A stretch of DNA of 64,000 nucleotides from Agromyces marinus (lineage in GTDB: Bacteria > Actinomycetota > Actinomycetes > Actinomycetales > Microbacteriaceae), in assembly GCF_021442325.1 (NCBI RefSeq), contig NZ_CP087879.1, positions 248,001 to 312,000 on the forward strand, read 5' to 3'. Both the position numbers and the translations under genes were made by a program. The notes below the pieces were generated by a model, which had not been told where the DNA came from, made no database searches, and saw only the letters and a program-made list of their open reading frames with translations. Positions 33,117-47,743 of this stretch are shown piece by piece. Position 1 is the first letter of the stretch. Each line of letters opens with the position of its first letter.

Positions 33117-34079
33117 TCAACTCGTCACAACGACGGATGCCGCGAGGGCTCGCCCCGTCGACTCATCCGGCTGGGCGCCGACGCCGCCGGGTCCTCGCGT
33201 GGATGCGGTCCCGCATGCCACGCCGAAGGCGAGCGCCTCCCCGGTCGACGCTCCGCGCAGGCGTGCGGCGAGGAACCCGGCCGCGAGCGTGTCGCCTGCG
33301 CCGACCGTGTCGACGAGCCGGCCCTCGACCGTCGGCACTGCGGCGTGGAGCGTCTCGGTGCGAGTGCCGACGCGGCTCAGTGCCGAGGCGCCGTCCGCGC
33401 CGAGCTTCGCCACGACGACGCCGCCCGGCGGCATCCGGTCGAGGGCCCACTCGACGGCACCGCCCAGGTCGCCGGCCTGCGAGATCCCGCACAGTTCCTG
33501 CTCGTTGCCGAAGAGGATGTCGGTGTGGGGGAGCAGATCGGCGATGCCTCCGTCCCACTCCTGCGCCGGGTCGAAGTTCCCGTCGACCGACGTGGTCAGT
33601 CCCTTGGCTCGAGCGCGTCGGAAGAGTTCGGCGGCGCCCGTCTGCAGGTCGTGTTGCAGGAAGTAGCTGCCGATGTGCAGGTGGGCGGACGAAGCGAGCG
33701 CGGTGTCGGGGACGTCGGCGGTCGTCACGGTCCCGATGGAGCCCATCGAGGTCAGGATCGCGCGGTCGCCGTCGGGACGCGTGAGATGGGTCGACGCGCC
33801 GGTCGGGCGCGTCGGGTCGATCCGGATGAGCGAGGTGTCGACCCGTCGGCGGTCGAGTTCGTCGGCGAGGAAGACCCCGAACGGGTCGTCGCCGCGCACG
33901 CTCACGAGGGATGTAGGGATCCCGAGTCGTGCGGCCCCGCATGCGGTGATCGCCGAGGAGCTGCCCATCGTGAGGGTCGTCGCGGGGACGATCTGTTCGT
34001 GCTGACCGAACCGGAGCTCTCCGTCGAGCTCCACGATCAGATCGACGCAGAGTTCCCCGACGACGAGCAACGCGTTCAC
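33117..34079 (-). CDS. PfkB-family carbohydrate kinase
   Basis: The 320-residue ribokinase-fold protein starts VNALLVVGELCVDLIVELDGE, has a substrate-side GSSSAITACGAARLG, and the ATP/catalytic signature DTVGAGDTLAAGFLAARL with the catalytic Asp. GTG 34079 overlaps the upstream stop (GTGA); ATG 34103, preceded by GGAG, is an alternative eight codons longer. It forms an operon with the Pro-1 protein and the SIS protein, opposite an ABC sugar importer. That arrangement resembles fructosamine kinase FrlD with deglycase FrlB. Ribose, adenosine or fructose-type substrates cannot be excluded. Confidence 0.87.
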   Translation of the reverse strand: MNALLVVGELCVDLIVELDGELRFGQHEQIVPATTLTMGSSSAITACGAARLGIPTSLVSVRGDDPFGVFLADELDRRRVDTSLIRIDPTRPTGASTHLTRPDGDRAILTSMGSIGTVTTADVPDTALASSAHLHIGSYFLQHDLQTGAAELFRRARAKGLTTSVDGNFDPAQEWDGGIADLLPHTDILFGNEQELCGISQAGDLGGAVEWALDRMPPGGVVVAKLGADGASALSRVGTRTETLHAAVPTVEGRLVDTVGAGDTLAAGFLAARLRGASTGEALAFGVACGTASTRGPGGVGAQPDESTGRALAASVVVTS

Positions 34080-34402
34080 GCGCTCGGCTGCGGCGTGATC
34101 CATTCGCTCCACGTCCCTTCGATTCGAATGCCGTGCTCCTCCGCCCAGTCTGCGACAGCGCCCGACGCGGCGTCGCACGCGCGCCCGTGCGCCTCGCGGC
34201 CGCGATCGGAGCCGTGGATGGTGACGACCGGCCACGGGTGCGTCGCTGCACCGCCGCTGGCGACCGCGGCCAGGACCGGGGTGCCCATGGCGATGACGTC
34301 GCCGGGGCCGAGCCCGAGACTGTCGGACACGGCGTCTGCCACGCGGGTCAGGAGGTCCGTGCCCGCCGAGTGCTCGGGGTGGATGACGGTGACGATCGGC
34401 AT
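34076..34402 (-). CDS. Small unknown protein with tautomerase-like N-terminal proline
   Basis: This 108-residue protein begins MPIVTVIHPEHSAGTDLLTRVADAVSDSL. Removal of Met would expose Pro-1 on a first beta-strand followed by an amphipathic helix. The second half repeats the strand-helix plan (PVVTIHGSDRGREAHGRACD). That is the beta-alpha-beta layout of the tautomerase/MIF superfamily, but I do not recognise a specific member. It overlaps both neighbours (1 nt with SIS, 4 nt with the kinase), so it is an integral part of the operon. Confidence 0.7.
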   Translation of the reverse strand: MPIVTVIHPEHSAGTDLLTRVADAVSDSLGLGPGDVIAMGTPVLAAVASGGAATHPWPVVTIHGSDRGREAHGRACDAASGAVADWAEEHGIRIEGTWSEWITPQPSA

Positions 34403-35310
34403 CAGTCGGTGACGAGGACGGAGCGGTTCAGGAAGGGCGGGGTGTCGGGGTTGCGTCCCTTGATCGCCGCGAGTTCGACCGCGAGCCGATGCACGAGCGG
34501 GAGGTTCGACTGGGCCTGGAGGTCGTTCGCGTAGACGGCGGCGCCGGTCGCGCGCACGTCGGCGACGACGACCTCGGGCGCTTCATCGAGGAACCAGACG
34601 AGGCTGCCCTCCCCGGCGCACGAGATCGGTCCATGCTGGTACTCCCAGACGGGGTAGGCCTCGGTCCAGAACCCGGCGGACTCGCGGACCTTGAGTGCTG
34701 CCTCCTGGGCGAGGCCGACGGAGGAACGATGTCCGAGGAACACGACGTGCCGGAGCGTGGCGGGGTCGGCCGGAAGGGGGAGCTCCAGTGCGGTCCGCGC
34801 CTCGGATGCCAGGGACGCGGGCGCCGCGCCGATCGACGCGCGGAGCGCGGTGAGCGCCGTCGTCGCGAATCGGGTCTGCACGATGGAGGTCTCGTCGGCG
34901 AACCCGAGGTGGACGATCCGGTCGGCGCAGAGCCGCCCGAGGGGGGTGTCCGCATCGCCCAGGATCGCGGTGATGCGGTTGGTCTCGCCGTAGCGTTCGA
35001 CGATGTCGACGACGTCGGCGGTGGTGCCCGAACGCGAGAGGACGACGATGTGCTCGTCGTCGTCGACCCAGGTGAGTTCGCTCGGGATCGCTGCGCGGGT
35101 TCGGCCGAGGCCTGCGTCGTTGCGAAGGTAGGCGTAGGCGTCGCCGATGTAGTACGAAGTGCCGCAGCCGATGACGAGGACCTTCTCGCCGGCCCGGGGG
35201 AGCAGTCCGATCTCCGAGTCCGGGAGGCTCATGGCGCGCTCCCACATCTCGGGCTGGGTCGCCAGCTCGCGTCGGGTGACGATGCCGGGCTGCTCTGAGT
35301 TGTCGTTCAT
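34402..35310 (-). CDS. SIS-domain protein (sugar-phosphate isomerase/deglycase, GlmS-isomerase/FrlB-like)
   Basis: The 302-residue protein has two SIS domains: VLVIGCGTSYYIGDAYAYL and VVLSRSGTTADVVDIV in the first, and VFLGHRSSVGLAQEAALKVR and WEYQHGPIS (conserved E and H) in the second, ending KGRNPDTPPFLNRSVLV. This matches GlmS-isomerase-like deglycases and deaminases acting on 6-phosphorylated amino sugars or Amadori products. ATG 35310 has GAGG 8 nt upstream. It is first in its operon and divergent from the importer genes. Confidence 0.88.
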   Translation of the reverse strand: MNDNSEQPGIVTRRELATQPEMWERAMSLPDSEIGLLPRAGEKVLVIGCGTSYYIGDAYAYLRNDAGLGRTRAAIPSELTWVDDDEHIVVLSRSGTTADVVDIVERYGETNRITAILGDADTPLGRLCADRIVHLGFADETSIVQTRFATTALTALRASIGAAPASLASEARTALELPLPADPATLRHVVFLGHRSSVGLAQEAALKVRESAGFWTEAYPVWEYQHGPISCAGEGSLVWFLDEAPEVVVADVRATGAAVYANDLQAQSNLPLVHRLAVELAAIKGRNPDTPPFLNRSVLVTD

Positions 35311-35358
35311 CACGTGATCCTCGAGGTCGGCCGCGACTGCGGCGGAACATGTGGTCAA

Positions 35359-35420
35359 ATTCAATCAGAAATGAGCAGGAATTGAAAGTTCTTGACAGAA
35401 ATGGCTCTGGTGGCTGATAC
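35359..35420 (+). promoter_or_regulatory. Promoter and candidate operator of the second sugar importer
   Basis: TTGACA (35391-35396) and TGATAC (35415-35420) form a promoter with 18-bp spacing. Immediately upstream, TTCAAT (35359-35364) and ATTGAA (35380-35385) form an inverted repeat enclosing AATGAGCAG, a 9-mer also found as its complement CTGCTCATT at 43121-43129. The region also serves the divergent SIS gene. Confidence 0.6.
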
Positions 35421-35487
35421 TGCTTGAATCAACTTGGCGCAGCGCAGCAACGGAGCTCGCCGTTCGATCACAGGAGGAGATCGCAGC

Positions 35488-36780
35488 GTGAAACTCATCA
35501 AGCGGACGCTCGGCATCGTCGGAGTCGTCACGGCGGGCACACTGGTGCTCAGCGGGTGTGCGGGCTTCGGCGGAGGCGGGTCAGAGGGCGACGAGCAGTC
35601 GCTCACCTTCACCACCTGGGGCAGCGAAGCCGAAGAGGTCAGCTTCCAGGAACTCATCGACCAGTTCGAAGCCGAGAACGAGGGCGCGGAGATCAAGCTG
35701 AACGTCGTGCCCTACGACCAGATGTTCTCGAACATCGACGCACAGCTCTCGTCGGGGAATGCCCCCGACCTCTTCCGCGCCGACTACGGCAACCTCGGCG
35801 TCTACTCGAGCCAGGGGCAGCTCCTGGACCTCTCCGATGCCTTCTCGGATGACGAGGCGTCGGAGTTCACCCCGGCGATGTGGGAGGCCGTCTCCTACGA
35901 CGGCGTGCCGTACGGCGTTCCCCACCAGACCGATGTCTCGGCGCTGCTCGTGAACATCCCGATGCTCACCGAAGCCGGCATCGACGTCGCCTCGCTGCCC
36001 ACGTCACAGGACGACGCATGGACCTGGGAGGAGTTCGCCTCGGTCGCAGGGCAACTGCGCGCGGCACTCCCGGCCGACGAGTACCCGTTCGTGTACAACT
36101 GGCAGCTCAACGGCGCGCCGCGGTGGCTGAGCTGGCTCTTCCAGGCCGACGGCACCTTCCTCGACGGCGACACCGCGACGATCGACTCGGCCGAGGGCGC
36201 GCGTGCGCTCGACTTCACCAAGAGCTTCTTCGAGAAGAACTGGGTGCCGCCGACGAGCTCGACCAAGGGCACCGTGTACGCCGACGCCCTGTTCACCGAG
36301 GGCACGGCCGCGATGGCCTTCATCGGGTCCTTCCTGGTTCCCGACATCGACCAGCTCGCCGGGTTCGAGTGGACCGCCATCCCGATGCCCAAGGATGAGC
36401 GTGGCGCGACCGACCTCGGCGGAAACGCCCTCGTCGCGACGAAGGACACCAAGAACCCCGAGCTCGCGGCCGAGTTCCTGAAGTTCATGGTCTCGGCCGA
36501 CGCGATGGCGCTGTTCTGCGGCAACACCAACGAACTGCCGACGCGCATCGACCTCGAAGGCGATGCGGTCGAGTTCAAGGTGCGTCCCGACGTCATGCCC
36601 GTCTTCGTCGATCAGGCGGCGACGATCGAGGCCGAAGACGTCAAGCAGCTGACCTCGCCGGCGATGGCCGCCGTGAACACCGCGCTCCAGGACCAGCTCG
36701 AGGCGGCCTTCATCGGCGGCCAGTCGACCGCCGAGACCCTGGAGAACCTCAGCGCGGCGATCGAGGAAGCGGCGAACTAA
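35488..36780 (+). CDS. ABC sugar transporter substrate-binding lipoprotein
   Basis: The 430-residue exported lipoprotein begins at GTG 35488, with GGAGGAG about 9 nt upstream. It has a lipobox LVLSGC (Cys about 21) and a family-1 solute-binding fold (LTFTTWGSEAEEVSFQELID, GVPYGVPHQTDVSALLVN, MAFIGSFLVPDIDQ). It is the receptor of a CUT1 importer with the next two genes. Divergence from the SIS/PfkB operon suggests a phosphorylatable sugar conjugate such as an Amadori product; this ligand is inference. Confidence 0.9.
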   Translation: MKLIKRTLGIVGVVTAGTLVLSGCAGFGGGGSEGDEQSLTFTTWGSEAEEVSFQELIDQFEAENEGAEIKLNVVPYDQMFSNIDAQLSSGNAPDLFRADYGNLGVYSSQGQLLDLSDAFSDDEASEFTPAMWEAVSYDGVPYGVPHQTDVSALLVNIPMLTEAGIDVASLPTSQDDAWTWEEFASVAGQLRAALPADEYPFVYNWQLNGAPRWLSWLFQADGTFLDGDTATIDSAEGARALDFTKSFFEKNWVPPTSSTKGTVYADALFTEGTAAMAFIGSFLVPDIDQLAGFEWTAIPMPKDERGATDLGGNALVATKDTKNPELAAEFLKFMVSADAMALFCGNTNELPTRIDLEGDAVEFKVRPDVMPVFVDQAATIEAEDVKQLTSPAMAAVNTALQDQLEAAFIGGQSTAETLENLSAAIEEAAN

Positions 36781-37721
36781 TGACCACCACGACCGCCCGC
36801 GGCCGGGAGAGCGCCCCCGCGCCGACCCGCCCGCGGGCGGCGCGCCGCGCCGCCCGCTTCAAGGAGTCCCTCGTCGGCTGGGGCTTCACCGCACCGAACC
36901 TCGTCCTGATGACGATGTTCCTGTTCGTGCCGATGGTCTGGGCACTCGTCCTGTCGTTCCAGGACACCCAGGGCTTCGGGGATCCGGAGTGGGTCGGCGC
37001 AGCCAACTACGCGACGCTCGTCAGCGACCCGGTGTTCTGGCGGAGCCTGTTCAACACCCTCGTCTTCACCGCGGCGACGGTCCCGATCGAACTCGCGGGC
37101 GGGCTCGGGCTCGCCGTGCTGCTGAACTCGGTCCTGCCCGCGCGTGGGGTCTTCCGGACGATCATCGTGCTGCCGATGGTCATCTCGGGCGTCGCCTCGG
37201 GCATGATCGCCGTCATCCTCTTCTACGAGTCCAACGGCCTCATCAACAAGGTGCTCGTCGCGACGGGGCTCGATCCCGTCGCATGGCAGTCGCAGGGCGG
37301 CCCCGCGATGGTGTCCGTCGTCATCGCCGCGATCTGGTTGCGGATCGGGTTCAACATGATCATCTACCTGGCGGGGCTCCAGAACATCTCGCCCGAGATG
37401 TACGAGGCCGCTCGCATCGACGGAGCGAGCCGGTGGCAGCAGTTCCGTTCGGTCACCGTGCCGCTCGTCGGCCCCTCCACGTTCTTCCTGCTCATCATGA
37501 ACGTCATCGCGTCGTTCCAGGTGTTCGACCTGATCTTCGTGATGACCGGCGGCGGACCGGGCAACGCGACGTCGGTACTCGGAACGTACGCCTACCGGAA
37601 CGGATTCCAGATCCGCGAGCAGGGCTACGGCGCGGCGATCGGCATCGTGATCCTCATCATCACGCTCATCTTCACGTACATCCAGTGGAAGACGAGCCGG
37701 ACGCGGGATCTCGCGGAGTAG
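36780..37721 (+). CDS. ABC sugar transporter permease (MalF-type)
   Basis: The 313-residue protein has a basic N-terminus, six membrane segments, the EAA loop EMYEAARIDGASRWQQFRSV and the family pattern FDLIFVMTGGGPGNATSVLGTY. Its ATG overlaps the binding-protein stop by one base (TAATG). It pairs with the next gene to form the membrane channel. No ATPase gene is present in the cluster. Confidence 0.92.
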   Translation: MTTTTARGRESAPAPTRPRAARRAARFKESLVGWGFTAPNLVLMTMFLFVPMVWALVLSFQDTQGFGDPEWVGAANYATLVSDPVFWRSLFNTLVFTAATVPIELAGGLGLAVLLNSVLPARGVFRTIIVLPMVISGVASGMIAVILFYESNGLINKVLVATGLDPVAWQSQGGPAMVSVVIAAIWLRIGFNMIIYLAGLQNISPEMYEAARIDGASRWQQFRSVTVPLVGPSTFFLLIMNVIASFQVFDLIFVMTGGGPGNATSVLGTYAYRNGFQIREQGYGAAIGIVILIITLIFTYIQWKTSRTRDLAE

Positions 37722-37730
37722 GAGCACATC

Positions 37731-38645
37731 ATGGCAAACACCACTGCGATGCTGGAGATCGCCGAGGCCGAGATCCTCGGCGACCGGAAGGCCGCAAGCC
37801 TGCGTCGTCGTCGTCGCCGTCGTCGCTCGGCCGACCGCAAGGGGGTCGTGCTGCGAACGATCGTCGCGATCGTCGTGGCGGCGATCGTGGTCTTCCCGCT
37901 CTACTGGATGGTCGTCGTCGCCTTCTCGCCGCGAGGCGAGGTGTTCGAGCCGGGGCTTCGGCTGTGGCCGTCGACGCTGACGATGGAGAACTTCGAGAAG
38001 GTCTTCGATCGCGTCCCCGTCGTCGCCTGGTTCGGGAACTCGGTCGTCATCGGGTTGTTCGTCACGGCGCTGACGGTCATCGTCAACCTGCTCGCGGGCT
38101 ACGCCTTCGCTCGGCTCCGCTTCCGCGGTCGCAACGCCGTCTTCCTGCTGGTCCTGTCCACGATGATGATCCCCGTGCAGGCGATCATGGTCGCGCAGTT
38201 CAAGCTCGTGACGGGTCTCGGGGTCTACGGAACCTACTGGGGCGTCATCCTCCCGGCTTCGGCGGCCGCGTTCGGCATCTTCCTCGCCCGGCAGTTCTTC
38301 ATCGGCATCCCCGATGAGATCGTCGAGGCGGCGCGAATCGACGGTGCCGGACACCTTCGGATCTTCCTCCAGGTCGTCCTGCCGCTGTGCAAGCCACTCA
38401 TCGCGGTGCTGACCCTGCTGACCCTCATGGGCAGTTGGAACGACTTCGCCTGGCCGTTGATCGCGCTGAACGACAACGAGCTGTTCACCCTGCCGATCGG
38501 TCTGCTGTACCTGCAGAACCAGACCGCGCCCGACTACAACGCGATCATGGCGCTCGCCCTCATCTCCGTCCTGCCGATGGTGCTGCTGTTCCTGTTCTTC
38601 CAGCGCTACTTCGTGCAGGGCTTCGCCAGGAGTGGAATCAAATGA
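37731..38645 (+). CDS. ABC sugar transporter permease (MalG-type)
   Basis: The 304-residue protein has an arginine-rich N-terminal patch (RRRRRRRRSADRKG, about 23-36), six membrane segments, and the EAA loop EIVEAARIDGAGHLRIFLQV. It is the second CUT1 permease. A GGAG lies about 6 nt upstream, and it starts 9 nt after the first permease. The Arg-run is encoded by repeated CGT codons, which could slow translation or simply anchor the N-terminus on the cytoplasmic face. Confidence 0.92.
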   Translation: MANTTAMLEIAEAEILGDRKAASLRRRRRRRRSADRKGVVLRTIVAIVVAAIVVFPLYWMVVVAFSPRGEVFEPGLRLWPSTLTMENFEKVFDRVPVVAWFGNSVVIGLFVTALTVIVNLLAGYAFARLRFRGRNAVFLLVLSTMMIPVQAIMVAQFKLVTGLGVYGTYWGVILPASAAAFGIFLARQFFIGIPDEIVEAARIDGAGHLRIFLQVVLPLCKPLIAVLTLLTLMGSWNDFAWPLIALNDNELFTLPIGLLYLQNQTAPDYNAIMALALISVLPMVLLFLFFQRYFVQGFARSGIK

Positions 38646-39649
38646 CCCTGACCTACCTCTGCACGCTGCCACTCCCGGACTCCTGGTTCGAGCAGCTCGC
38701 CGACCGAATGCCCGACGTCGAGATCCACAGGCACGCGCCCGACTCCACCCCGTCGGCGGAGCTGCTCGCCGAGGTCGACCTGTTGCACACGAGCGAATGG
38801 CTGCCCGAGGCCGCAGCGGTCCCGGCCCTGCGATGCGTGCAGCTCGACACCTCGGGTGTGGACCACGTCCGGGGGACGTCGTTGTGGGACAGCGAGATCC
38901 CGATCGCGACCCTCGGCGGCATCGCGCCGATCCCGATGGCCGAGTACGCGATGATGGCGATCCTCGAGCTCTCGCACCGGATGCCGCTCATCGAGCGCCA
39001 CCGCGCCGACAGGACCTGGCCGACGAACGCCGAGCGGCTCGCGACGCTGACGCCGAGGGAGCTGCGCGGGGCGACCGTGGGGATCGTGGGATACGGCCGG
39101 ATCGGCCGCGAGATCTCGCGACTCGCCGAGGTGTTCGGCATGAACGTGCTCGGTGTCAGCCGATCCGGTCGGCCGCCGGTCGACGCCGAGAAGTTCGACA
39201 CCGGGCGTCGCTCCGTCGCCGAGGACCGGGCCGAGCTGTTCGCAATGGACCGGCTCGATGAGGTGCTCCGTCGAAGCGACTTCCTCGTGGTCGTCGTCCC
39301 GCTCACGGAACTGACCCGCGGCATGATCGGCGCGCAGCAGCTCGACCTCCTGCCGCCGGGGGCCCACGTGATCAACATCGCGCGCGGAGGCATCGTCGAC
39401 GAGTCGGCGCTGCTGGAACGGGTTCGCGACGGCCGGATCGCAGGGGTGGCGCTGGACGTGTTCGACGATGAGCCGCTTCCGCCGACCTCGGCCTGGTGGT
39501 CGGAGCCGAACGCGCTGGTCACCCCGCACGTCGCCGGACTCGCGCCGCAGTACCATGCACAGACGCTGGATCTCGTCGTCGAGAATCTGACGCGTCTCGC
39601 CGAGAACAGGCCGATCGTGAATGAGGTGGACCGTGCCGCAGGCTACTGA
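38642..39649 (+). CDS. D-isomer-specific 2-hydroxyacid dehydrogenase family protein
   Basis: The 335-residue protein has the catalytic domain halves at both ends and a central NAD domain with TVGIVGYGRIGREISRLAEVFG (GxGxxG). Active-site regions are INIARGGIVDESALLERV (Arg), DVFDDEPLPPTS (Glu) and NALVTPHVAG (His), all present. It reduces a 2-keto acid or oxidises a D-2-hydroxyacid with NAD(P). ATG 38642 overlaps the permease stop (ATGA), placing it in the importer operon. Confidence 0.9.
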   Translation: MTLTYLCTLPLPDSWFEQLADRMPDVEIHRHAPDSTPSAELLAEVDLLHTSEWLPEAAAVPALRCVQLDTSGVDHVRGTSLWDSEIPIATLGGIAPIPMAEYAMMAILELSHRMPLIERHRADRTWPTNAERLATLTPRELRGATVGIVGYGRIGREISRLAEVFGMNVLGVSRSGRPPVDAEKFDTGRRSVAEDRAELFAMDRLDEVLRRSDFLVVVVPLTELTRGMIGAQQLDLLPPGAHVINIARGGIVDESALLERVRDGRIAGVALDVFDDEPLPPTSAWWSEPNALVTPHVAGLAPQYHAQTLDLVVENLTRLAENRPIVNEVDRAAGY

Positions 39650-40412
39650 ACCGCTGCTGGGGCCGAAGCGGCAACGCGAGCTGCTGAACTACATCCGTGC
39701 TTCGGGTGCAGGATCGGTCAACGAACTCGCCCGACACCTCAACGTGAGCGCATCCACCGTGCGCCGCGACCTCAACGAACTCCAGGACCGTGGCCTCCTC
39801 GAGCGGGTTCACGGCGGTGCGGCGCAGATCGATGACGACATCGAGCCGCTCCGCCAGCAGCGCGAAGTCTCGTTCGCTGCTGAGAAGCGGCGGATCGGGC
39901 AGGCGGCCGCCGCCCACATCGTCCAGGATTCCACCGTCCTGATCACCGGCGGCACGACCACCGAGGCGATGCTGCCGTTCCTCGGCGGGATCCAGGGGTT
40001 GACGGTGCTCACCAACAGCATCACGGTGGTCAATCGGCTCGCGCCGATGACGGACATCGACGTCATCGTGCTCGGGGGGCTGCTGCGCAGGCAGGAGATG
40101 AGTCTGCTCGGCCATCTCACGGTGGCGGCCGTCGCCGAGTTCGGGATCGACCAGGTGTACATCGGCGCGTTCGGCGTCGACCCCGAGAACGGCATCACCG
40201 GGACCAACCTCTCCGAGACCCAGACCGATCGCGCGCTCTCGACCTCCGCGGCCGAGCTCATCGTGCTCGCCGACCACTCGAAGCTCAGCCGGCGCGGACC
40301 GGTCCGACTGGTCCCGAACAGCGGTATCGCACGCCTGATCGTCGACGACGGCGCCGACGAACTGACGATCGCACGATTCAGGCAAGCCGGGGTGACCGTC
40401 GAGACATGCTGA
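39633..40412 (+). CDS. DeoR-family transcriptional regulator
   Basis: The 259-residue protein has a DeoR helix-turn-helix (GSVNELARHLNVSASTVRRD followed by LNELQDRGLLERVHGGA, about 26-62) and a sugar-phosphate-sensing C-terminal domain (TVLITGGTTTEAMLPFL, GAFGVDPENGITGTNLSE, SELIVLADHSKL-like). GTG 39633 is preferred because GAGGTGG precedes it; ATG 39621 is an alternative four codons longer. Such regulators respond to phosphorylated sugars and probably control this island, including the importer promoter and possibly the operon at 43190. Confidence 0.9.
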   Translation: MPQATEPLLGPKRQRELLNYIRASGAGSVNELARHLNVSASTVRRDLNELQDRGLLERVHGGAAQIDDDIEPLRQQREVSFAAEKRRIGQAAAAHIVQDSTVLITGGTTTEAMLPFLGGIQGLTVLTNSITVVNRLAPMTDIDVIVLGGLLRRQEMSLLGHLTVAAVAEFGIDQVYIGAFGVDPENGITGTNLSETQTDRALSTSAAELIVLADHSKLSRRGPVRLVPNSGIARLIVDDGADELTIARFRQAGVTVETC

Positions 40413-41302
40413 CTTCGACTGCCCACCTGGTGGGCGGGCTGGGCGCGAGCCTGCCCGCGATCGCCGCATTCAACGTCATCACGCTGGAGTTCGCACAGGG
40501 GATCGTCGCCGGCGCCGAGCGCGCGGGCGCACCGGTCCTCCTGTCGATCAGCCACAATGCCGTGAGGTTCCACGGCGGCCTCGGGGCCATCGCGGCCGGG
40601 TGCCTCGCCGTAGCCGAATCCGCCGCGGTGCCGGTGGCGCTGCACCTGGACCATTGCGAGGACGAGGAGCTCGTGCTCGAGGCCGCCGACGTGGGCTTCG
40701 CCTCGGCGATGTTCGACGCGTCCCGGCTCCCGTACTCCGAGAACGTGGCGGCGACGGCGCGCGTCGCCGGGCTCGGGCGAGAGCGCGGCCTCTGGATGGA
40801 GGCCGAACTCGGAGAGATCGGCGGCAAGGACGGCGCGCACGCTCCCGGCGTCCGAACCGATCCGGGCGAGGCCGCCGCGTTCGTCGCGTCGACCGGCGTC
40901 GACGGGCTGGCGGTCGCGGTGGGGACCTCCCATGCGATGACCACTCGCACGGCCCGGCCAGACGAGGAGCTCATCGCGAGGCTCGCGTCGACGCTCGAGG
41001 TCCCGCTGGTGCTGCACGGCTCCTCGGGGGTCGACGACGAGGGCCTGCGCGGTGCGGTGGCCGCCGGCATCCGGAAGGTCAACGTCGGGACGCAGCTCTC
41101 GGCGGCGTACTCGGGTGCGCTCGCCGAGTCCATCGGGGCACGCCCCGACCCCCGGCCGTCGTTGGCCGCTGCACGCGACGCGATCGCCGACGCGGTCGAG
41201 CATCTCGTGCGCGTCATCTCATTCCCCGCACGAACCGAACGTCCTGAAAGTGAGGAACACCATGTCCGCAACAGTGTCCGGACCCTCGACCCACGAGGGT
41301 GA
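40406..41302 (+). CDS. Class II (zinc) ketose-bisphosphate aldolase, FbaA/GatY/KbaY family
   Basis: The 298-residue protein shows PAIAAFNVITLEFAQGIV, the zinc/catalytic HLDHCEDEELVLEA, MEAELGEIGG, a zinc histidine in VAVGTSHAM, LHGSSGV and KVNVGTQL. These are class II aldolase landmarks. It would split a ketose 1-phosphate or 1,6-bisphosphate to DHAP and an aldehyde. It overlaps the regulator gene by 7 nt, and its last 13 codons overlap the next gene by 41 nt. The kinase at 47740 could supply its substrate. Confidence 0.88.
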   Translation: MLTSTAHLVGGLGASLPAIAAFNVITLEFAQGIVAGAERAGAPVLLSISHNAVRFHGGLGAIAAGCLAVAESAAVPVALHLDHCEDEELVLEAADVGFASAMFDASRLPYSENVAATARVAGLGRERGLWMEAELGEIGGKDGAHAPGVRTDPGEAAAFVASTGVDGLAVAVGTSHAMTTRTARPDEELIARLASTLEVPLVLHGSSGVDDEGLRGAVAAGIRKVNVGTQLSAAYSGALAESIGARPDPRPSLAAARDAIADAVEHLVRVISFPARTERPESEEHHVRNSVRTLDPRG

Positions 41303-41639
41303 GCCGACCGCAGCGGAGCTGCTCGCGGCCGGCGACATCGTCGGGCTCATGCGCGCCTGCCACGACCGCCGTCTGGAGCGCGAAGGGATCCCGATGGTCA
41401 TCGGCCTCGCGGATGAACGCGGTGCCGTGCCCACCGCCGGGTCCGAGGCGCAGCTCGCCGAGGGTCGCGCGTACGCCGACGTGTTCGAGCGGTACTCCGC
41501 TGCACTCGTGCCCTGGGCGCGCAACGACGATGAGGGCGCGGTGATCACCGCGATGCAGGTCGTCGCCTACACCCACTTCGCCCCCGGTGCGGCGCCGGTC
41601 ACCGACGCCGCGAACGACTCGGAAGGAACTCCCGAATGA
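41262..41639 (+). CDS. Hypothetical protein, 125 residues
   Basis: I do not recognise a family. ATG 41262 is supported by GAGG 8 nt upstream, and the gene overlaps its neighbours at both ends (41 nt with the aldolase, 4 nt with the deacetylase-like gene). The middle is mixed helical (ELLAAGDIVGLMRACHDRRL, YADVFERYSAALVPWARNDD). There is no signal peptide or membrane segment. Conserved-looking charged residues and its operon position suggest a small soluble enzyme subunit or partner of the next protein. Confidence 0.65.
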   Translation: MSATVSGPSTHEGEPTAAELLAAGDIVGLMRACHDRRLEREGIPMVIGLADERGAVPTAGSEAQLAEGRAYADVFERYSAALVPWARNDDEGAVITAMQVVAYTHFAPGAAPVTDAANDSEGTPE

Positions 41640-42316
41640 CACAGCCATCGTTCCAGGCGCAGCGCGACCAGCTCCGCCGTGGCCACTTCATCCGCGTCGT
41701 GAACTACCACTCGACGCCGAACTCAGCTCGTGAGGAGTTGGCCGCCGAACTCGCCGGCTTCGCACGCGACTACGCCCCGGTGACGCTCGAGGATCTGGAT
41801 CGGCTGTTCGAGACCGGCACGTGGCACAAGGACAAGCCCGGGCTCATCCCGGTGTTCTACGAGGGCTATCGCAACTCGGCCACCGTCGCAGCCCCGTTGT
41901 GCGACGAACTTGGGCTGACCGGCTGGTTCCCGATCGCGACCTCGTTCGTCGAATGCGACCCCGAGTACCAGGAGGCGTTCGCCCGGGCGCACTGGATCTC
42001 GCTCGTGGAGGAGGACACGCGGGGTGGTCGGATCGCCATGAACTGGGACGAGGTCGCCGCCCTGTCGCAGCGTCACGTCGTCTTCCCGCACACCGCGCAC
42101 CATGAGGGCTTCGACACCGCCCTGTCGGATGCCGACATCCAGCGCGAGGTCGTCGACTCCAAGCGGGCCCTCGAGGCCGTCACCGGCCAGGAGGCACCGG
42201 CCTTCGTGTGGCTGCACGGGTCGTCCTACGGCCAGAGCCCGCTTCACGACCAGGCGGTCCGGGATGCCGGCTACCGCTATCAGTTCGCCAACACGATGAT
42301 CCACCGGATCAACTGA
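41636..42316 (+). CDS. Polysaccharide deacetylase (NodB/CE4)-like protein with altered motif 1
   Basis: The 226-residue protein resembles CE4 enzymes: IRVVNYHSTPN at the start, a central FPIATSFVE, the metal motif HTAHHEGFD (HxxxH) and a C-terminal GYRYQFANTM. The usual TFDDG of motif 1 appears replaced by PVFYEGYRNSA, so deacetylase activity is uncertain. It has no signal peptide, unlike most wall deacetylases, which suggests a cytoplasmic substrate. It is the last gene of the importer operon and is followed by a strong hairpin. Confidence 0.7.
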   Translation: MTQPSFQAQRDQLRRGHFIRVVNYHSTPNSAREELAAELAGFARDYAPVTLEDLDRLFETGTWHKDKPGLIPVFYEGYRNSATVAAPLCDELGLTGWFPIATSFVECDPEYQEAFARAHWISLVEEDTRGGRIAMNWDEVAALSQRHVVFPHTAHHEGFDTALSDADIQREVVDSKRALEAVTGQEAPAFVWLHGSSYGQSPLHDQAVRDAGYRYQFANTMIHRIN

Positions 42317-42323
42317 GACCGCG

Positions 42324-42356
42324 GGGCCCAGTGCCGGAGTGCCCGGCGCTGGGCCC
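42324..42356. terminator. Strong hairpin between convergent genes
   Basis: GGGCCCAG-T-GCCGG (42324-42337) pairs with CCGGC-G-CTGGGCCC (42343-42356) in a 14-bp stem with one G-U pair and a 5-nt loop, 7 nt after the deacetylase-like stop. It can serve both converging genes. Confidence 0.75.
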
Positions 42357-42424
42357 GTCCGCACGGTGGCGGCATGGGTGGGCACGTCGCCCGACCCGTG
42401 CGCGGGCCGGGCAGGCGCCCGGCG

Positions 42425-43138
42425 TCACGAGGATGAGTCGGGCACTCCCAGGTGGCGGACGAGTCCGTCGGATCCGCGCCAGACGAGCTCCGTGGTCCCG
42501 CCGTTCCGCGTGGATCGCGCCGATCGGGCGCTTCCGGGCTCGGCATCCTCGACGCCCGCTTCGGCGAGCCTCGCCTGCGTCGGTCGATCGCCGATGCCAC
42601 CGATGCCCTCACCATCCACTCGCTCCCAGCTCCGCTCCGGATATGCCGCTCCCGTCGAGCGGCGGGTGAGCGTCGAGCCGTCGCGGAGCGACAGGTGCAC
42701 GGTGATCCGACCGTCGTCGTGCTCGGCGTCGAATGCGACGACCCCCGTCTCGACATCGGCGGTGCGTCGGGTGAAGCCGGGGCCCGGAGACCAGTACCAG
42801 CTCTGCAGGTCGCCGTTCTCGGTGAGCGCGATCACCTCGAGGTGATCCGGTCCGAGTGTCGACTGGAGGATGCAGACGTCGCGGTATCGGTGGCCCGCGG
42901 CGAAATGCAGCCCGTCGCTCCACGATCCGGGCGGGACGTCGGGCGTTTCGAGCGGGTCCGACGCGAGATCGGAGTTGAACCAGAAGACCCAGAGGCCGTC
43001 GGATCGGTCGCATGCGACCAGTTCGAGGTTTCCGCGTGCGCCGTACACGCCCTGAGTGACCGAGGCCGGCCCGACGGTGGGGCGTGATCGGCCCACCACG
43101 ACTGCTGTTTGTGAGTGCATCTGCTCATTCTTGCTCAT
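42425..43138 (-). CDS. Hypothetical protein, possible beta-propeller/lectin-like repeats
   Basis: The protein is up to 237 residues and has no signal peptide. It shows repeated short units, for example GNLELVACDRSDGLWVFWFN and LEVIALTENGDLQSWYWSPG, a pattern like the bladed repeats of PLL- or fucolectin-type beta-propellers; this is a guess. Starts at 43138 or 43120 are possible and neither has a convincing ribosome site. Both lie inside the candidate regulatory region of the FAH operon, so the true start may be further downstream, near GTG codons at VVVGRS. Confidence 0.55.
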   Translation of the reverse strand: MSKNEQMHSQTAVVVGRSRPTVGPASVTQGVYGARGNLELVACDRSDGLWVFWFNSDLASDPLETPDVPPGSWSDGLHFAAGHRYRDVCILQSTLGPDHLEVIALTENGDLQSWYWSPGPGFTRRTADVETGVVAFDAEHDDGRITVHLSLRDGSTLTRRSTGAAYPERSWERVDGEGIGGIGDRPTQARLAEAGVEDAEPGSARSARSTRNGGTTELVWRGSDGLVRHLGVPDSSS

Positions 43139-43177
43139 ATGTGAGTAGTTGTGGCAAGATGATCGCGACGGATCATC
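43121..43177 (+). promoter_or_regulatory. Candidate promoter and operators of the FAH-GH4-dehydratase operon
   Basis: TGCTCAT occurs twice as a direct repeat 10 bp apart (43122-43128 and 43132-43138). Its extended form CTGCTCATT is the complement of AATGAGCAG at the importer promoter. TTGCTC (43131-43136) and CAAGAT (43155-43160) could be -35/-10 boxes with 18-bp spacing. GATGATC (43158-43164) and GATCATC (43171-43177) form a 7-bp inverted repeat just after. Confidence 0.45.
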
Positions 43178-43189
43178 CGAAGGAGTGTC

Positions 43190-44029
43190 ATGAGAATCGC
43201 CCGCGTCCTGATCGACGGCCGACCGCGCATCCTGGTGCAGGACGGGGCATCCGCCCGCCTGGCACCGGCCGACCACCCCGACGATGCGCTCGCGGCCATC
43301 GAATCCGTTCGAACCGGCGCCGCCGCAGGCTGGACCGAGACCGAGATCGGCGAGGTCGAGTTCCTTGCGCCCGTCGCCGGCGCGGGCAAGATGATCGCGG
43401 TCGGGCTGAACTACGTCGACCACACCGCCGAGACCGGAATCACGCAGCCGGAGCGCCCCCTCACGTTCGCCAAGTACCCGACCTCGATCACCGGACCCAC
43501 CGCCGATGTCGTCGTTCCCGACCACGTCACGCAGGGAGTCGACTTCGAGGCCGAACTCACCCTCCTGATCGGTCGGCGCTGCGGCGGTTCGACGCCGGCG
43601 ACGCTCGACGACGTTGCGGCGTACACGGTCGCCAACGACGTCTCGGCGCGAGACGTGCAGTTCGGCGACGTCCAGTGGACGAGGGGCAAGTCGTTCGATA
43701 CGTTCACCCCCCTCGGACCCTGGCTCGTGACCGCCGACGAGTTCGGCGACCCCAAGGGCCACCGGATCTACGCGGACGTCGACGGAGAGCTGCTCCAGGA
43801 AGACGACACCGCCGAGATGATCTTCGACGTGCCGACGATCCTCGAGTTCGTCAGCGACGGCGTCACCCTCGAACCCGGCGACCTCATCCTCACGGGCACG
43901 CCCGCCGGGGCGGGCGGCTTCCGCACTCCGCCGCGCTACCTGCAGCACGGCCAGGTGGTCACCGTCGGCGTCGAGGGGATCGGCGAACTGCGCAACCGCG
44001 TCGTCTACCGCTCGCGACTGGCCGCCTAG
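43190..44029 (+). CDS. Fumarylacetoacetate hydrolase (FAH) family protein
   Basis: The 279-residue protein has the FAH core: MIAVGLNYVDHTAETG, metal ligands in VDFEAELTLLIGRRC, NDVSARDVQFGDVQWTRGKS, and LTGTPAGAGGF. Members cleave or hydrate acylpyruvates; in non-phosphorylating sugar-acid pathways they hydrolyse 2,4-diketo-3-deoxy acids to pyruvate plus a hydroxyacid. AAGGAG lies 7 nt before ATG 43190. Association with an IlvD/Edd dehydratase in the same operon favours the sugar-acid role. Confidence 0.9.
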   Translation: MRIARVLIDGRPRILVQDGASARLAPADHPDDALAAIESVRTGAAAGWTETEIGEVEFLAPVAGAGKMIAVGLNYVDHTAETGITQPERPLTFAKYPTSITGPTADVVVPDHVTQGVDFEAELTLLIGRRCGGSTPATLDDVAAYTVANDVSARDVQFGDVQWTRGKSFDTFTPLGPWLVTADEFGDPKGHRIYADVDGELLQEDDTAEMIFDVPTILEFVSDGVTLEPGDLILTGTPAGAGGFRTPPRYLQHGQVVTVGVEGIGELRNRVVYRSRLAA

Positions 44030-44061
44030 ACCGCACGACGAACGAACTGCAAAGGAGCATC

Positions 44062-45429
44062 ATGACCACCGAACGCCGCGTCCTCGTCCTCATCGGCGCA
44101 GGGTCCGCCGTCTTCACCCGCGGCCTCCTCGCCGACCTCATCGGGGCGGAAGACCTCGGCGCATGGGAGATCCGTCTCGTCGACGTCGACCCGGTCGCAC
44201 TGGACGTGGCCGCCGACCTGGCCGAATCCATGGTCGCGGCCCGCGGCGTCGGCGAGACCATCCGCGTCGTCCGCAGCACCGATCGTCGAAGCGTGCTCCG
44301 CGGCGCGGACTTCATCGTCACGTGCGTCGGGGTCGGAGGCCGGGCGGCCTGGCAGCTCGACCACGAGATCGTCCAGAAGCACGGCATCTACCAGCCCGTC
44401 GGCGACTCGATCATGCCGGGCGGCATCTCGAGGCTGCTCCGCACCACTCCCGTCCTGGTCGAGATCTCGCGCGACATCGCCGAACTCGCGCCCGACGCGT
44501 TCTTCTTCAACTACTCCAACCCGATGACCGCGAACGTGCAGGCCATCCACCAGGAGAGCGGGCTCGACGTCGTCGGCCTCTGCCACGGCATGCACCACAT
44601 CCAGCGCGAGCTCGCGCAGCTGATCGACGCGCCGTTCGATCGCACGTCGACGCTGTACGCCGGAATCAACCACCTCACCTTCATCTACGACTTCCGCCTC
44701 GACGGGCGGGACGCCTGGCCCATGATCCGCGAGCGCGTCGAACGCGAACTCGCCGAGGTCCCCGACCCCGACGACATCGGCAACATCTTCTACGACAAGC
44801 CCACGGCCTGGCACAATCCCTTCGCCTGGGAGCTGTTCGAACGATACGGAGCGTTCGCTGCTGCCGGCGACCGCCACGTGGTCGAGTTCTTCCCCGAGCG
44901 GTTCGCCGACGGCGACTACTACGGCAAGAAGCTCGGCATCGACGCGTTCTCGCTCCCCGAGATCCTGGAATGGGGCGAGAACCGGTACCAGGGGATGAAG
45001 CGGCAGGCGCTCGGCGAGGAGCCGCTGGACCAGTCGATCTTCGATCGATCGGGCGGCGAGCAGGAGCAGCTGATCGCGATCATCCGTTCCATCACGTTCG
45101 ACTCGCGCGAGATGTTCAGCTGCAACGTCGTCAACAAGGGCCTCGTGCCCGGCCTGCCCGACTGGTCCGCAGTCGAGATCCCCGGTGTCGCGACGGCCCG
45201 CGGCATCCGCCCCATCGAGGTCCCCGACCTCGGCAAGCCGCTCACCGCGATCCTCGCTCGTCGCCTCACCTCGGTCGACCTCGCGGTCGAAGCCGCGCTG
45301 ACCGGTGACCGCGACCTCGTCGTCGAGGCGATGATCGCCGACGGCGCCGTCTTCGACGCCGACAGGGCCGCGGCGCTCACCGACGACCTCGTCTCCGCCC
45401 AGGCGCAGTACCTGCCGAGGTTCGCGTGA
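44062..45429 (+). CDS. Glycoside hydrolase family 4 (candidate alpha-glucuronidase/uronidase)
   Basis: The 455-residue NAD- and Mn-dependent glycosidase has a Rossmann start VLVLIGAGSAVFTRGLLADL, FNYSNPMTANVQAIH, the Mn-ligand cysteine in GLCHGMHH and a histidine in AGINHLTFIYDF. GH4 cuts by an oxidation-elimination-addition route. The CHG form of the cysteine motif is the one I associate with alpha-glucuronidases, rather than CHE/CHS or the CN/CD forms of 6-phospho-specific members. AAAGGAG lies 7 nt before ATG 44062. The substrate is inference. Confidence 0.88.
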   Translation: MTTERRVLVLIGAGSAVFTRGLLADLIGAEDLGAWEIRLVDVDPVALDVAADLAESMVAARGVGETIRVVRSTDRRSVLRGADFIVTCVGVGGRAAWQLDHEIVQKHGIYQPVGDSIMPGGISRLLRTTPVLVEISRDIAELAPDAFFFNYSNPMTANVQAIHQESGLDVVGLCHGMHHIQRELAQLIDAPFDRTSTLYAGINHLTFIYDFRLDGRDAWPMIRERVERELAEVPDPDDIGNIFYDKPTAWHNPFAWELFERYGAFAAAGDRHVVEFFPERFADGDYYGKKLGIDAFSLPEILEWGENRYQGMKRQALGEEPLDQSIFDRSGGEQEQLIAIIRSITFDSREMFSCNVVNKGLVPGLPDWSAVEIPGVATARGIRPIEVPDLGKPLTAILARRLTSVDLAVEAALTGDRDLVVEAMIADGAVFDADRAAALTDDLVSAQAQYLPRFA

Positions 45430-47249
45430 GCGCTCGCAACCTGGGCAAGGAGGAGCGCGAGGCGCGCGCGGCGGCCGACGCCGCGGAGGCAGAGTTCGCG
45501 GGCCGCTCGGGCGTGCCGACCCGGGAATGGGGCGATGGCCTTCGCTCGCAGCAGTGGTTCGGTGCCGACGGCAAGACGGGCTTCATGCACCGGTCGTGGC
45601 TTCGGAGCGAGGGACTTCCCGACGACACGTTCCGCGGGCGGCCGATCATCGGCATCGCCAACTCGTGGAGCGAGCTGACCAGTTGCAACATCCACCTCCG
45701 GGCGCTCGCCGAGCACGTCAAGCGAGGGATCTGGCAGGCCGGCGGCGTGCCGTTCGAGTTCCCGACGACCTCGGCCGGCGAGCCCATCGTCCGGCCCACG
45801 GCGATGCTGTTGCGCAACCTGATGGCGATGGACCTCGAGGAGACCCTCCGGGCGAATCCGCTCGACGGCGTCGTACTCATGGCCGGGTGCGACAAGACGA
45901 CGCCCGCGTACCTGATGGGTGCGGCATCCGTCGATCTGCCCGCGCTGCTCATCACGGGCGGGCCGATGCTCAACGGCAAGCACCGGGGAACCGACATCGG
46001 GTCGGGAACATCGGTGTGGAAGTTCACCGAGGCGTACCGCGCCGGGCTCATGGACGATACGGCGATCACCGAGGCCGAGGGCTGCATGGCACGCAGCCAG
46101 GGCCACTGCCAGACGATGGGCACGGCATCGACGATGGCGTGCGTGTCGGAGTACATGGGCATGCAGTTGCCCGGTACCGCCTCGCTTCCGGCCAACGACT
46201 CCCGCCGCGCCACTGCGGCGCACCTCGCGGGCCGACGCATCGTGCAGATGGTCGAAGAAGACCTGCGTCCGTCCAAGATCCTCACTCGGAAGGCGTTCGA
46301 GAACGGCGTCCGAGCGAACGCGGCGCTGGGCGGCTCGACCAACGCGGTCATCCATCTGCTCGCACTCGCTCGACGCGTGGGCGTCGAACTGACGCTCGAC
46401 GACTTCGACACGCTCGTGCGCGACATCCCCGTCCTCGCCGACCTCATGCCGAGCGGCCGCTTCCTCATGGAGGACTTCGAGTACGCCGGGGGCACGGCCG
46501 GATTCGCCGAGACGCTCGGAGACCTGCTGCACCGGGATGCGCTCACGGTCACCGGCACGACGCTCGGCGAGAACTACTCCGGCGCCGAGGTGTTCGACCG
46601 CGAGGTCATCCGGCCGCTGGAGAACCCGGTCAAGCCGGTCGGGTCGGGCATCGCCGTCCTTCGCGGCAACCTCGCCCCGCGTGGTGCCGTGATCAAGCAG
46701 TCGGCGGCAGACCCCGAGCTCATGCAGCACTCCGGGCGCGCGCTCGTCTGGGATTCGCTGCAGGACTACCTCCGCGACGCCGACGACCCCGAGCTGGACG
46801 TCGAGCCCGAAGACATCCTCATCGTGCGCAACGTGGGTCCGAAGGGCTACCCCGGCATGCCGGAGGTCGGCAACCTCGCGCTCCCGCGCAAGATCCTCGC
46901 GTCGGGGGTCACCGACATGGTGCGCATCTCGGACGCGCGGATGAGCGGGACCTCGTACGGCACCGTCATCCTCCACGTGGTGCCCGAGGCGGCGGCGGGC
47001 GGCCCGCTCGCGCTCGTGCAGACCGGCGACCGCGTCACGATCGATGTCGCAGGTCGCTCGCTGCACATGCACGTCTCCGACGAGGAGCTCGAACAGCGTC
47101 GCACGCAGTGGCAGCCGCGAACGGTCCCGGGCAGTGAACGCGGGTGGACCCGGCTCTACATCGATCACGTCACCCAGGCCGACGAGGGGCTCGATCTCGA
47201 CTTCCTCCAGGGTCGCAGCGGTGCAGCCGTCGGGCCGCAGGCGTTCTGA
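45426..47249 (+). CDS. IlvD/Edd-family sugar-acid dehydratase
   Basis: The 607-residue protein has the iron-sulfur cysteines expected of the family in NSWSELTSCN, MAGCDKTTPA and SQGHCQTMGTAS, and the conserved ANAALGGSTNAVIHL and GYPGMPEVGNLALPRK. It resembles pentonate/hexonate dehydratases (arabinonate, xylonate or gluconate type) more than branched-chain IlvD. It would dehydrate an aldonate to a 2-keto-3-deoxy acid. GTG 45426 overlaps the GH4 stop (GTGA). Confidence 0.9.
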   Translation: MSARNLGKEEREARAAADAAEAEFAGRSGVPTREWGDGLRSQQWFGADGKTGFMHRSWLRSEGLPDDTFRGRPIIGIANSWSELTSCNIHLRALAEHVKRGIWQAGGVPFEFPTTSAGEPIVRPTAMLLRNLMAMDLEETLRANPLDGVVLMAGCDKTTPAYLMGAASVDLPALLITGGPMLNGKHRGTDIGSGTSVWKFTEAYRAGLMDDTAITEAEGCMARSQGHCQTMGTASTMACVSEYMGMQLPGTASLPANDSRRATAAHLAGRRIVQMVEEDLRPSKILTRKAFENGVRANAALGGSTNAVIHLLALARRVGVELTLDDFDTLVRDIPVLADLMPSGRFLMEDFEYAGGTAGFAETLGDLLHRDALTVTGTTLGENYSGAEVFDREVIRPLENPVKPVGSGIAVLRGNLAPRGAVIKQSAADPELMQHSGRALVWDSLQDYLRDADDPELDVEPEDILIVRNVGPKGYPGMPEVGNLALPRKILASGVTDMVRISDARMSGTSYGTVILHVVPEAAAGGPLALVQTGDRVTIDVAGRSLHMHVSDEELEQRRTQWQPRTVPGSERGWTRLYIDHVTQADEGLDLDFLQGRSGAAVGPQAF

Positions 47250-47743
47250 TGGGCGCCTCGGCGCAGCAGGTGCGGCCGTCGATCCTCGTGATCGGCGCAT
47301 CGGGGGTGCTGGCACCAGCCGTCGAGGCGCTCCGCCTCGACGCGCGCGTGACCGGAATCTCCCTGACCCGCCCCGCGCCGGACGGCGTCGAGTCGATCCT
47401 CGTCAACGCATCCGACCCCGTCGCGCTCGGCAGCGCCCTGGCCGGCAGGAGCTGGTCGGCAGCGGTCGTCTACGCACCGGCTGTCACCCGTGACACGCTG
47501 GCCATCATCGCTGCCGCATCCTCACGGCGCGCCGTCGTGGTGCGGACGAGCGACGCCGTCGATCCCGCCCACGGGGCCGTCGACGTTCCGGCGGACACAC
47601 TGCAGCTCGGCTGGGCCGTCGAGCCCGACGGGCGGCGGCGGTGGCATTCGGCCGAGGAGATCTCCGCGGCTGCGCTCGAGGTCCTCTCGGACGGCGTCGG
47701 ACGGGTGCTCGGCGCGATCCGTCCCTGGGAGGAACGCCCGTGA
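47249..47743 (+). CDS. Hypothetical Rossmann-like protein, 164 residues
   Basis: It starts VRPSILVIGASGVLAPAVEALR, a glycine-rich strand-loop-helix like a dinucleotide-binding motif, but at 164 residues it is too short for a full SDR enzyme and lacks a YxxxK pair. It overlaps the dehydratase stop by one base (TGATG) and the kinase start by four. It may be a small accessory protein or a reduced dehydrogenase of the pathway. No known function is recognised. Confidence 0.65.
   Translation: MGASAQQVRPSILVIGASGVLAPAVEALRLDARVTGISLTRPAPDGVESILVNASDPVALGSALAGRSWSAAVVYAPAVTRDTLAIIAAASSRRAVVVRTSDAVDPAHGAVDVPADTLQLGWAVEPDGRRRWHSAEEISAAALEVLSDGVGRVLGAIRPWEERP

Follow-up and report, generated by a model that had tools for sequence, protein, structure and literature searches.

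Among the known systems closest to the locus described here is the Aga-type galactosamine/N-acetylgalactosamine pathway, which comprises AgaS, a tagatose-6-phosphate kinase, a tagatose-bisphosphate aldolase and AgaR, together with what appears to be its actinobacterial form, composed of a SIS protein, a class II fructose/tagatose-bisphosphate aldolase (FBA), PfkB and ROK kinases and NagA. A solute-binding protein (SBP), two permeases, a SIS protein and a PfkB kinase are also combined in the Bacillus fructosamine (frl) operon. This operon reads frlBONMD-frlP, with FrlP as its own ATPase and MsmX as a second one (PMC12632257). We analyzed a stretch of 64,000 nt of Agromyces marinus (NZ_CP087879.1, positions 248,001–312,000), hereafter the window, to which all coordinates refer unless another locus is named. 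It contains two divergent operons that encode the same generic parts and, between the kinase and the SIS protein, a 108-aa protein with a proline directly after the start (Pro-1). To judge from synteny, this locus belongs to a larger gene cluster that several actinobacterial families have conserved. We consider it about an even bet that the cluster is an inducible, aga-like amino-sugar catabolic regulon that handles an imported glycoside containing an amino sugar and includes a tautomerase dedicated to the SIS step. With somewhat less confidence we propose that the Pro-1 enzyme catalyzes a step of its own, tied to a SIS deaminase/isomerase for amino-sugar phosphates, in an undescribed actinobacterial pathway for amino-sugar glycosides that also employs a GH4 glycosidase and an unusual CE4-like protein.

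The central part of the locus is organized as follows:

33117–34103 (ATG at 34103) or 33117–34079 (GTG), minus strand: kin, sugar kinase of the PfkB/ribokinase family (Pfam PF00294, E 4.5e-45)
34076–34402, minus strand: 108-aa protein with Pro-1, predicted member of the tautomerase superfamily (predicted fold, Pro-1 alignment, remote relatives after SIS)
34402–35310, minus strand: SIS protein, probably GlmD/AgaS/GlmS-type and not FrlB (Pfam SIS E 5e-10, profiles, tree)
35311–35487, no strand: divergent promoter region of 177 bp (motif, conserved stretch, promoter-like site)
35488–36780, plus strand: solute-binding protein of an ATP-binding cassette (ABC) transporter (Pfam SBP_bac_1, E 1.7e-37)
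36780–37721, plus strand: ABC permease 1 (Pfam BPD_transp_1)
37731–38645, plus strand: ABC permease 2 (Pfam BPD_transp_1)

The preliminary description of this DNA had placed these genes correctly, as Pfam and the open reading frames confirm, and had recognized divergent operons with one promoter region between them. Its observation that the 108-aa gene overlaps both neighbors was accurate as well: the overlap comprises 1 bp at the SIS stop (TGATG) and, on the kinase side, 4 bp with the GTG start or 28 bp with the ATG start. The boundary at 38645 did not hold, since the gene cluster ends at about 48648 and thus spans 33117–48648, approximately 15.5 kb.

Sequence searches of Pfam, NCBIfam and the PDB with the 108-aa protein gave nothing significant and consequently a predicted fold was needed. 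An AlphaFold2 model, built from a 12-sequence alignment, reached a mean predicted local distance difference test score (pLDDT) of 95.8 and displays a beta-alpha-beta-beta-alpha-beta fold. Foldseek and VIA-align matched this model to the tautomerase superfamily, with the fused 4-oxalocrotonate tautomerase (4-OT) 6vvr at Z 13.6 and a root-mean-square deviation of 2.7 over 103 residues, and residue 2 of the model superposes on residue 1 of 6vvr. Pro-1 is invariant in all 12 aligned sequences and is found again in nine remote members of a second lineage, family f35. Both lineages also have in common the Arg of the HGSDR/RGRLR motif and a C-terminal Trp. From this modeling, membership of the 108-aa protein in the tautomerase superfamily, with Pro-1 in place, is well supported, and the tautomerase-like character proposed in the preliminary description gains a predicted structure.

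The constant neighbor of this protein is the SIS gene. In all 12 clusters of the window type, one of them from a metagenome-assembled genome (MAG), the tautomerase gene directly follows the SIS gene, and a 95–112-aa protein starting with Met/Val-Pro occupies the same place in nine of nine f35 clusters. The model of the window lineage matches one f35 Pro-1 protein (E 1e-4), the f35 model matches the window protein (2e-4), and hhalign aligns both profiles with a probability of 96.7%. Within the fetched loci (about 20 kb at most, some of them truncated) of roughly 80 ordinary amino-sugar SIS relatives, no Pro-1 homolog was detected. Neither a published SIS-tautomerase gene pairing nor such a pathway was found in the open-licence literature, and to our knowledge no Pro-1 tautomerase has been linked to the catabolism of amino-sugar phosphates. 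One might argue that the protein is a non-catalytic partner or stabilizer of the SIS enzyme, given the strict adjacency with start/stop overlap and its fast sequence change: between related loci it retains 40–55% identity compared to 69–78% for the SIS protein, and ratios of nonsynonymous to synonymous substitution (dN/dS) of about 0.4–0.8 in pairwise comparisons describe a protein that is constrained, yet fast-changing. However, Pro-1, the Arg of HGSDR and the C-terminal Trp are kept across two lineages, as expected for a catalytic member, and we regard a purely structural role as rather unlikely.

With a SIS protein, a PfkB kinase and an importer side by side, such a locus is easily mistaken for a fructosamine system, and this was the assignment of the preliminary description. 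In a fructosamine (Amadori) system the kinase makes fructosamine 6-phosphate, which is then deglycated by the SIS protein. The generic parts fit this scheme, the SBP and both permeases providing an importer that is not frl-specific, and the kinase is 25% identical to FrlD (BLASTP E 1e-17). However, the kinase scores only 65 bits against the FrlD model, which requires 247; it reaches no NCBIfam equivalog cut-off, and other PfkB models gave 69–101 bits. The SIS protein is not matched by the FrlB model NF008481 even at E 10. Genome-wide, the sole match of this model lies at 2501230, where a search with the SIS protein had located a GlmS-like protein. By BLASTP, E. coli FrlB is found at E 0.19 and AgaS at 5e-7. 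Against the PDB, the profile of the SIS group retrieves GlmD first (95 bits), followed by a Thermotoga deaminase, NagB-II, GlmS and AgaS-type structures, while the FrlB/FraB-type structures 3eua, 3fkj and 9otr, which E. coli FrlB does find, are not matched. In a 40-row tree the SIS proteins of the clusters form one group (98/93) that is sister to other actinobacterial SIS proteins (joint 100/99), and the FrlB/FraB-type proteins stand apart (100/99).

The preliminary description itself had named a grouping with AgaS or GlmS as evidence against a fructosamine system, and this is essentially what the phylogeny delivered. Forcing the cluster SIS proteins and FrlB/FraB into one clade costs 26.5 log units, and the approximately unbiased (AU) test returned a borderline p of 0.055, so that a joint clade is not formally rejected; long branches are in play and the tree alone does not settle the matter, yet such a clade is strongly disfavored. 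Moreover, a fructosamine route has no place for the GH4 glycosidase, the aldolase and the second kinase of the cluster. Taken together, the models, BLASTP, the genome-wide search, the PDB profile and the tree lead us to reject frl membership, and we hold an Amadori product as substrate to be improbable. The statement in the preliminary description that the Bacillus operon lacks an ATPase was mistaken as well, given FrlP. From sequence, the SIS protein would instead belong to the GlmD/AgaS/GlmS-type deaminase group.

A further actinobacterial SIS enzyme, Streptomyces NagS, yields an unsaturated product (PMC12680351). If the SIS protein of the window were such an N-acetylhexosamine-phosphate dehydratase, the tautomerase might handle this product. 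NagS, however, groups with MurQ, adjoins dmdR1 and is confined to Streptomycetaceae (PMC12680351), while the SIS protein of the window is closest to GlmD-type deaminases. On the description in that paper (MurQ-related, dmdR1-linked) we rejected this candidate, and we assign it the lowest probability of all explanations considered.

The sister group of the cluster SIS proteins points toward amino sugars. Among the approximately 80 fetched loci with a sister-group SIS gene, most have a class II aldolase gene no more than a few kb away, many a DeoR or PfkB gene and some also ROK and NagA; these parts would make up a route from N-acetylhexosamine to ketose bisphosphate. The genome of the window itself carries a second cluster of this kind with DeoR, class II aldolase, PfkB, ROK kinase and SIS genes (G000:C1 86867–91384, L119), whose SIS protein is 43% identical to that of the window locus. 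In two genomes, G056 and G166, the ordinary SIS loci include NagA-type deacetylases, below the equivalog cut-off. Both genomes lack FBA in the new cluster and encode an FBA, 52–53% identical, in the region of the ordinary amino-sugar SIS gene. Thus the new cluster and the ordinary amino-sugar route probably converge, with both SIS enzymes feeding one ketose phosphate.

Beyond the second permease gene, the cluster continues with the following features:

38642–39649, plus strand: protein of the D-2-hydroxyacid dehydrogenase family (Pfam 2-Hacid_dh_C, E 1e-51)
39621–40412, plus strand: DeoR-family regulator (best model AgaR, 155 vs 260 bits, below cut-off)
40406–41302, plus strand: class II fructose/tagatose-bisphosphate aldolase family protein (Pfam F_bP_aldolase, E 8e-74)
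41262–41639, plus strand: hyp125, 125 aa, no family (precedes the CE4-like gene in most clusters, by synteny)
41636–42316, plus strand: CE4-like (polysaccharide deacetylase) protein (Pfam Polysacc_deac_1, 27.5 bits)
42425–43138, minus strand: hyp237, 237 aa, weak similarity to beta-propeller lectins (NCBIfam NF052348, E 1.2e-4, below cut-off)
43122–43138, no strand: second motif copy, direct repeat TGCTCATTCTTGCTCAT, upstream of FAH/hyp237 and overlapping the hyp237 start as called
43190–44029, plus strand: FAH-family hydrolase (Pfam FAA_hydrolase, E 2e-66)
44062–45429, plus strand: GH4 glycosidase with a CHGM motif (Pfam Glyco_hydro_4)
45426–47249, plus strand: IlvD/Edd sugar-acid dehydratase, L-arabinonate-dehydratase-like (NCBIfam PRK06131, 880 bits, over cut-off)
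47249–47743, plus strand: hyp164, 164 aa, Rossmann-like, no family assigned
47740–48648, plus strand: second PfkB kinase (PfkB2), 1-PFK/LacC-like (Pfam PfkB; NCBIfam 1-PFK, 158 of 216 bits)

At the family level, the cluster hence holds a candidate ketose-6-phosphate kinase (PfkB2) and a class II bisphosphate aldolase (F_bP_aldolase), next to a SIS protein of a clade that is encoded together with ketose-bisphosphate aldolase, PfkB and DeoR genes. For the GH4 protein, the alpha-galacturonidase LplD (3fef) is among the best PDB matches, over the full length, and the best model for the FAH protein is 2,4-didehydro-3-deoxy-L-rhamnonate hydrolase, below cut-off. No ATPase gene adjoins the SBP and permease genes; the genome encodes a UgpC/MsiK-type ATPase, which scores over the model cut-off, at an unlinked site.

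Both divergent promoter regions of the cluster carry one copy of the same 12-bp motif. This motif, TGCTCATTYYTG, is found at exactly two places of the window, 35366–35377 and 43122–43133, while shuffled sequences gave an expectation of 0. The first copy, TGCTCATTTCTG on the minus strand, lies in the region 35311–35487 inside a conserved TCAATCAGAAATGAGCA..AATGAAAGTT stretch; these 177 bp hold a stretch conserved across 11 loci, and a promoter-like TTGACA-18-GATACT is located at 35392–35421. The second copy belongs to the FAH/hyp237 region, and a direct repeat TGCTYATTCT-TGCTCAT precedes the FAH gene in most related loci. The presence of the motif in both regions suggests one regulon, and the DeoR protein might be the factor that binds it. 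The hyp237 gene, divergent from FAH within the common motif-bearing promoter region, is not present in G056.

The arrangement recurs in other genomes, with gene positions taken from tblastn and gene order compared as far as the fetched stretches extend. Of the 59 other genomes sampled in the genus, 7 show it in synteny, and one of these has no aldolase, FAH or hyp237 there. The arrangement further occurs in Salinibacterium soli, in one actinobacterial MAG and in two genomes of another Microbacteriaceae genus (one being Microbacterium sp. K24). Such conservation argues that the arrangement is more than chance. Clusters in other actinobacterial families were located using the CE4-like protein as marker. 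In eight of the nine f35 clusters, kin, SIS, tautomerase, PfkB2 and FBA genes are read in one direction, followed by hyp125 and the CE4-like gene, an order that looks like the order of a pathway. The dehydratase beside FAH in f35 (L155 3727–5874) falls into the IlvD subfamily (720 bits, over cut-off) and not into the L-arabinonate type; it is possibly a replacement at the equivalent cluster place. The CE4-like protein ranks with the best-conserved products of the cluster despite reading VFYEG for the usual TFDDG (window 41636–42316). Together with hyp125 it stands alone in G473 (L137 9223–10184), within a stretch that, from its sequence, also has formate dehydrogenase-like and selenium-related genes. 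Genome G490 possesses importer, GH4 and CE4-like genes and no relative of the cluster SIS protein at E 1e-20. A separate G490 cluster (L176 1983–15000) holds GH4 (33% identical), DeoR, ABC transporter and PfkB genes. It also encodes an aldolase that shares 60% identity with that of the window and a protein of the AgaS family (489 of 529 bits).

How might these parts act together? We infer the substrate, the order of reactions and the target of the tautomerase as follows. The ABC importer, energized by a shared ATPase, would bring an amino-sugar-containing glycoside into the cell, where the GH4 and CE4-like proteins probably trim it. The PfkB kinase would phosphorylate the amino sugar, possibly galactosamine or a relative, and the SIS enzyme would strip ammonia and isomerize the product to a ketose 6-phosphate, like GlmD/AgaS-type enzymes. 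The second PfkB kinase and the class II aldolase could then yield triose phosphates. The Pro-1 protein would be dedicated to the SIS step, most likely accelerating the interconversion of enol(amine) and imine, or of keto and enol forms, in the SIS product ahead of the 1-kinase. IlvD/Edd, FAH and the dehydrogenase may process the other half of the glycoside released by GH4.

Alternatively, the tautomerase could serve this sugar-acid branch: IlvD/Edd, dehydrogenase and FAH would produce a 2,4-dioxo-3-deoxy acid and split it, with the Pro-1 protein ketonizing its enol. In meta-cleavage pathways, a tautomerase and an FAH enzyme work one after the other, and here FAH and IlvD/Edd share the cluster with a tautomerase. 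In addition, the kin-SIS pair of G166 is followed by an acetylating acetaldehyde dehydrogenase gene (over cut-off) and a 4-hydroxy-2-oxovalerate-aldolase-like gene (L136 11170–15100). However, the tautomerase gene stays next to SIS and in no case adjoins FAH or IlvD/Edd. G056 keeps the tautomerase where its closest FAH match is 39–41% identical, showing that FAH can be absent, and in G166 IlvD/Edd is present and no tautomerase was found. The idea that the tautomerase goes with FAH was examined in G056, G166 and G490 and was not supported. A role in the sugar-acid branch is thus unlikely, even if slightly less so than that of a non-catalytic partner. Since the constant neighbor of the tautomerase is SIS and FAH is dispensable, a step on the SIS product is favored.

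Several observations weigh against the amino-sugar reading with a SIS-coupled tautomerase. G166 encodes kin and SIS of the cluster clade without an adjacent tautomerase. The structure model of the f35 Pro-1 protein is poor (pLDDT 75), and the matches listed by Foldseek included no tautomerase, nor did any match reach E 0.001; the putative homology to the window protein comes from profiles and gene position. The SIS protein stays below the curated equivalog cut-offs for AgaS, GlmD and NagB-II (AgaS family TIGR02815: 25.7 bits vs 529), the CE4-like protein is without the usual catalytic Asp, and the sugar-acid-type genes (IlvD/Edd, FAH, 2-hydroxyacid dehydrogenase) are unexplained by a pure amino-sugar route. 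With the constant SIS-tautomerase pair in two separate actinobacterial lineages, a putative new sugar-phosphate tautomerization step becomes accessible to direct tests with two small soluble enzymes.

Compared to the frl operons of Bacillus and E. coli, the SIS protein and kinase of the window come from other subfamilies, a DeoR regulator and extra genes are added, and no adjoining ATPase corresponds to FrlP. Among solved structures, archaeal GlmD glucosamine-6-phosphate deaminase is the best relative of the SIS protein (2cb0 and 2dec; 93–95 bits by profile). However, the latter scores far below the GlmD equivalog cut-off, and it has Arg (FLNRSV) where GlmD has a C-terminal Lys (FLDKVV). With the tautomerase superfamily (fused 4-OT/cis-CaaD/MIF) the 108-aa protein shares the fold, the N-terminal Pro and one conserved Arg, while it is only about 10–22% identical to any solved member listed, and its gene adjoins an amino-sugar-type SIS gene instead of standing in an aromatic or haloacid pathway. 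The Aga-type pathway has in common with the cluster a sister-clade SIS protein, a class II aldolase, a PfkB kinase and a DeoR/AgaR-like regulator, a gene set that recurs in the genome's own second cluster. In contrast, the window cluster has a SIS protein below the curated AgaS cut-off, a sugar kinase of the PfkB instead of the ROK type and no NagA deacetylase, and adds to the Aga-type set the tautomerase, GH4, CE4-like, IlvD/Edd, FAH and 2-hydroxyacid dehydrogenase proteins.

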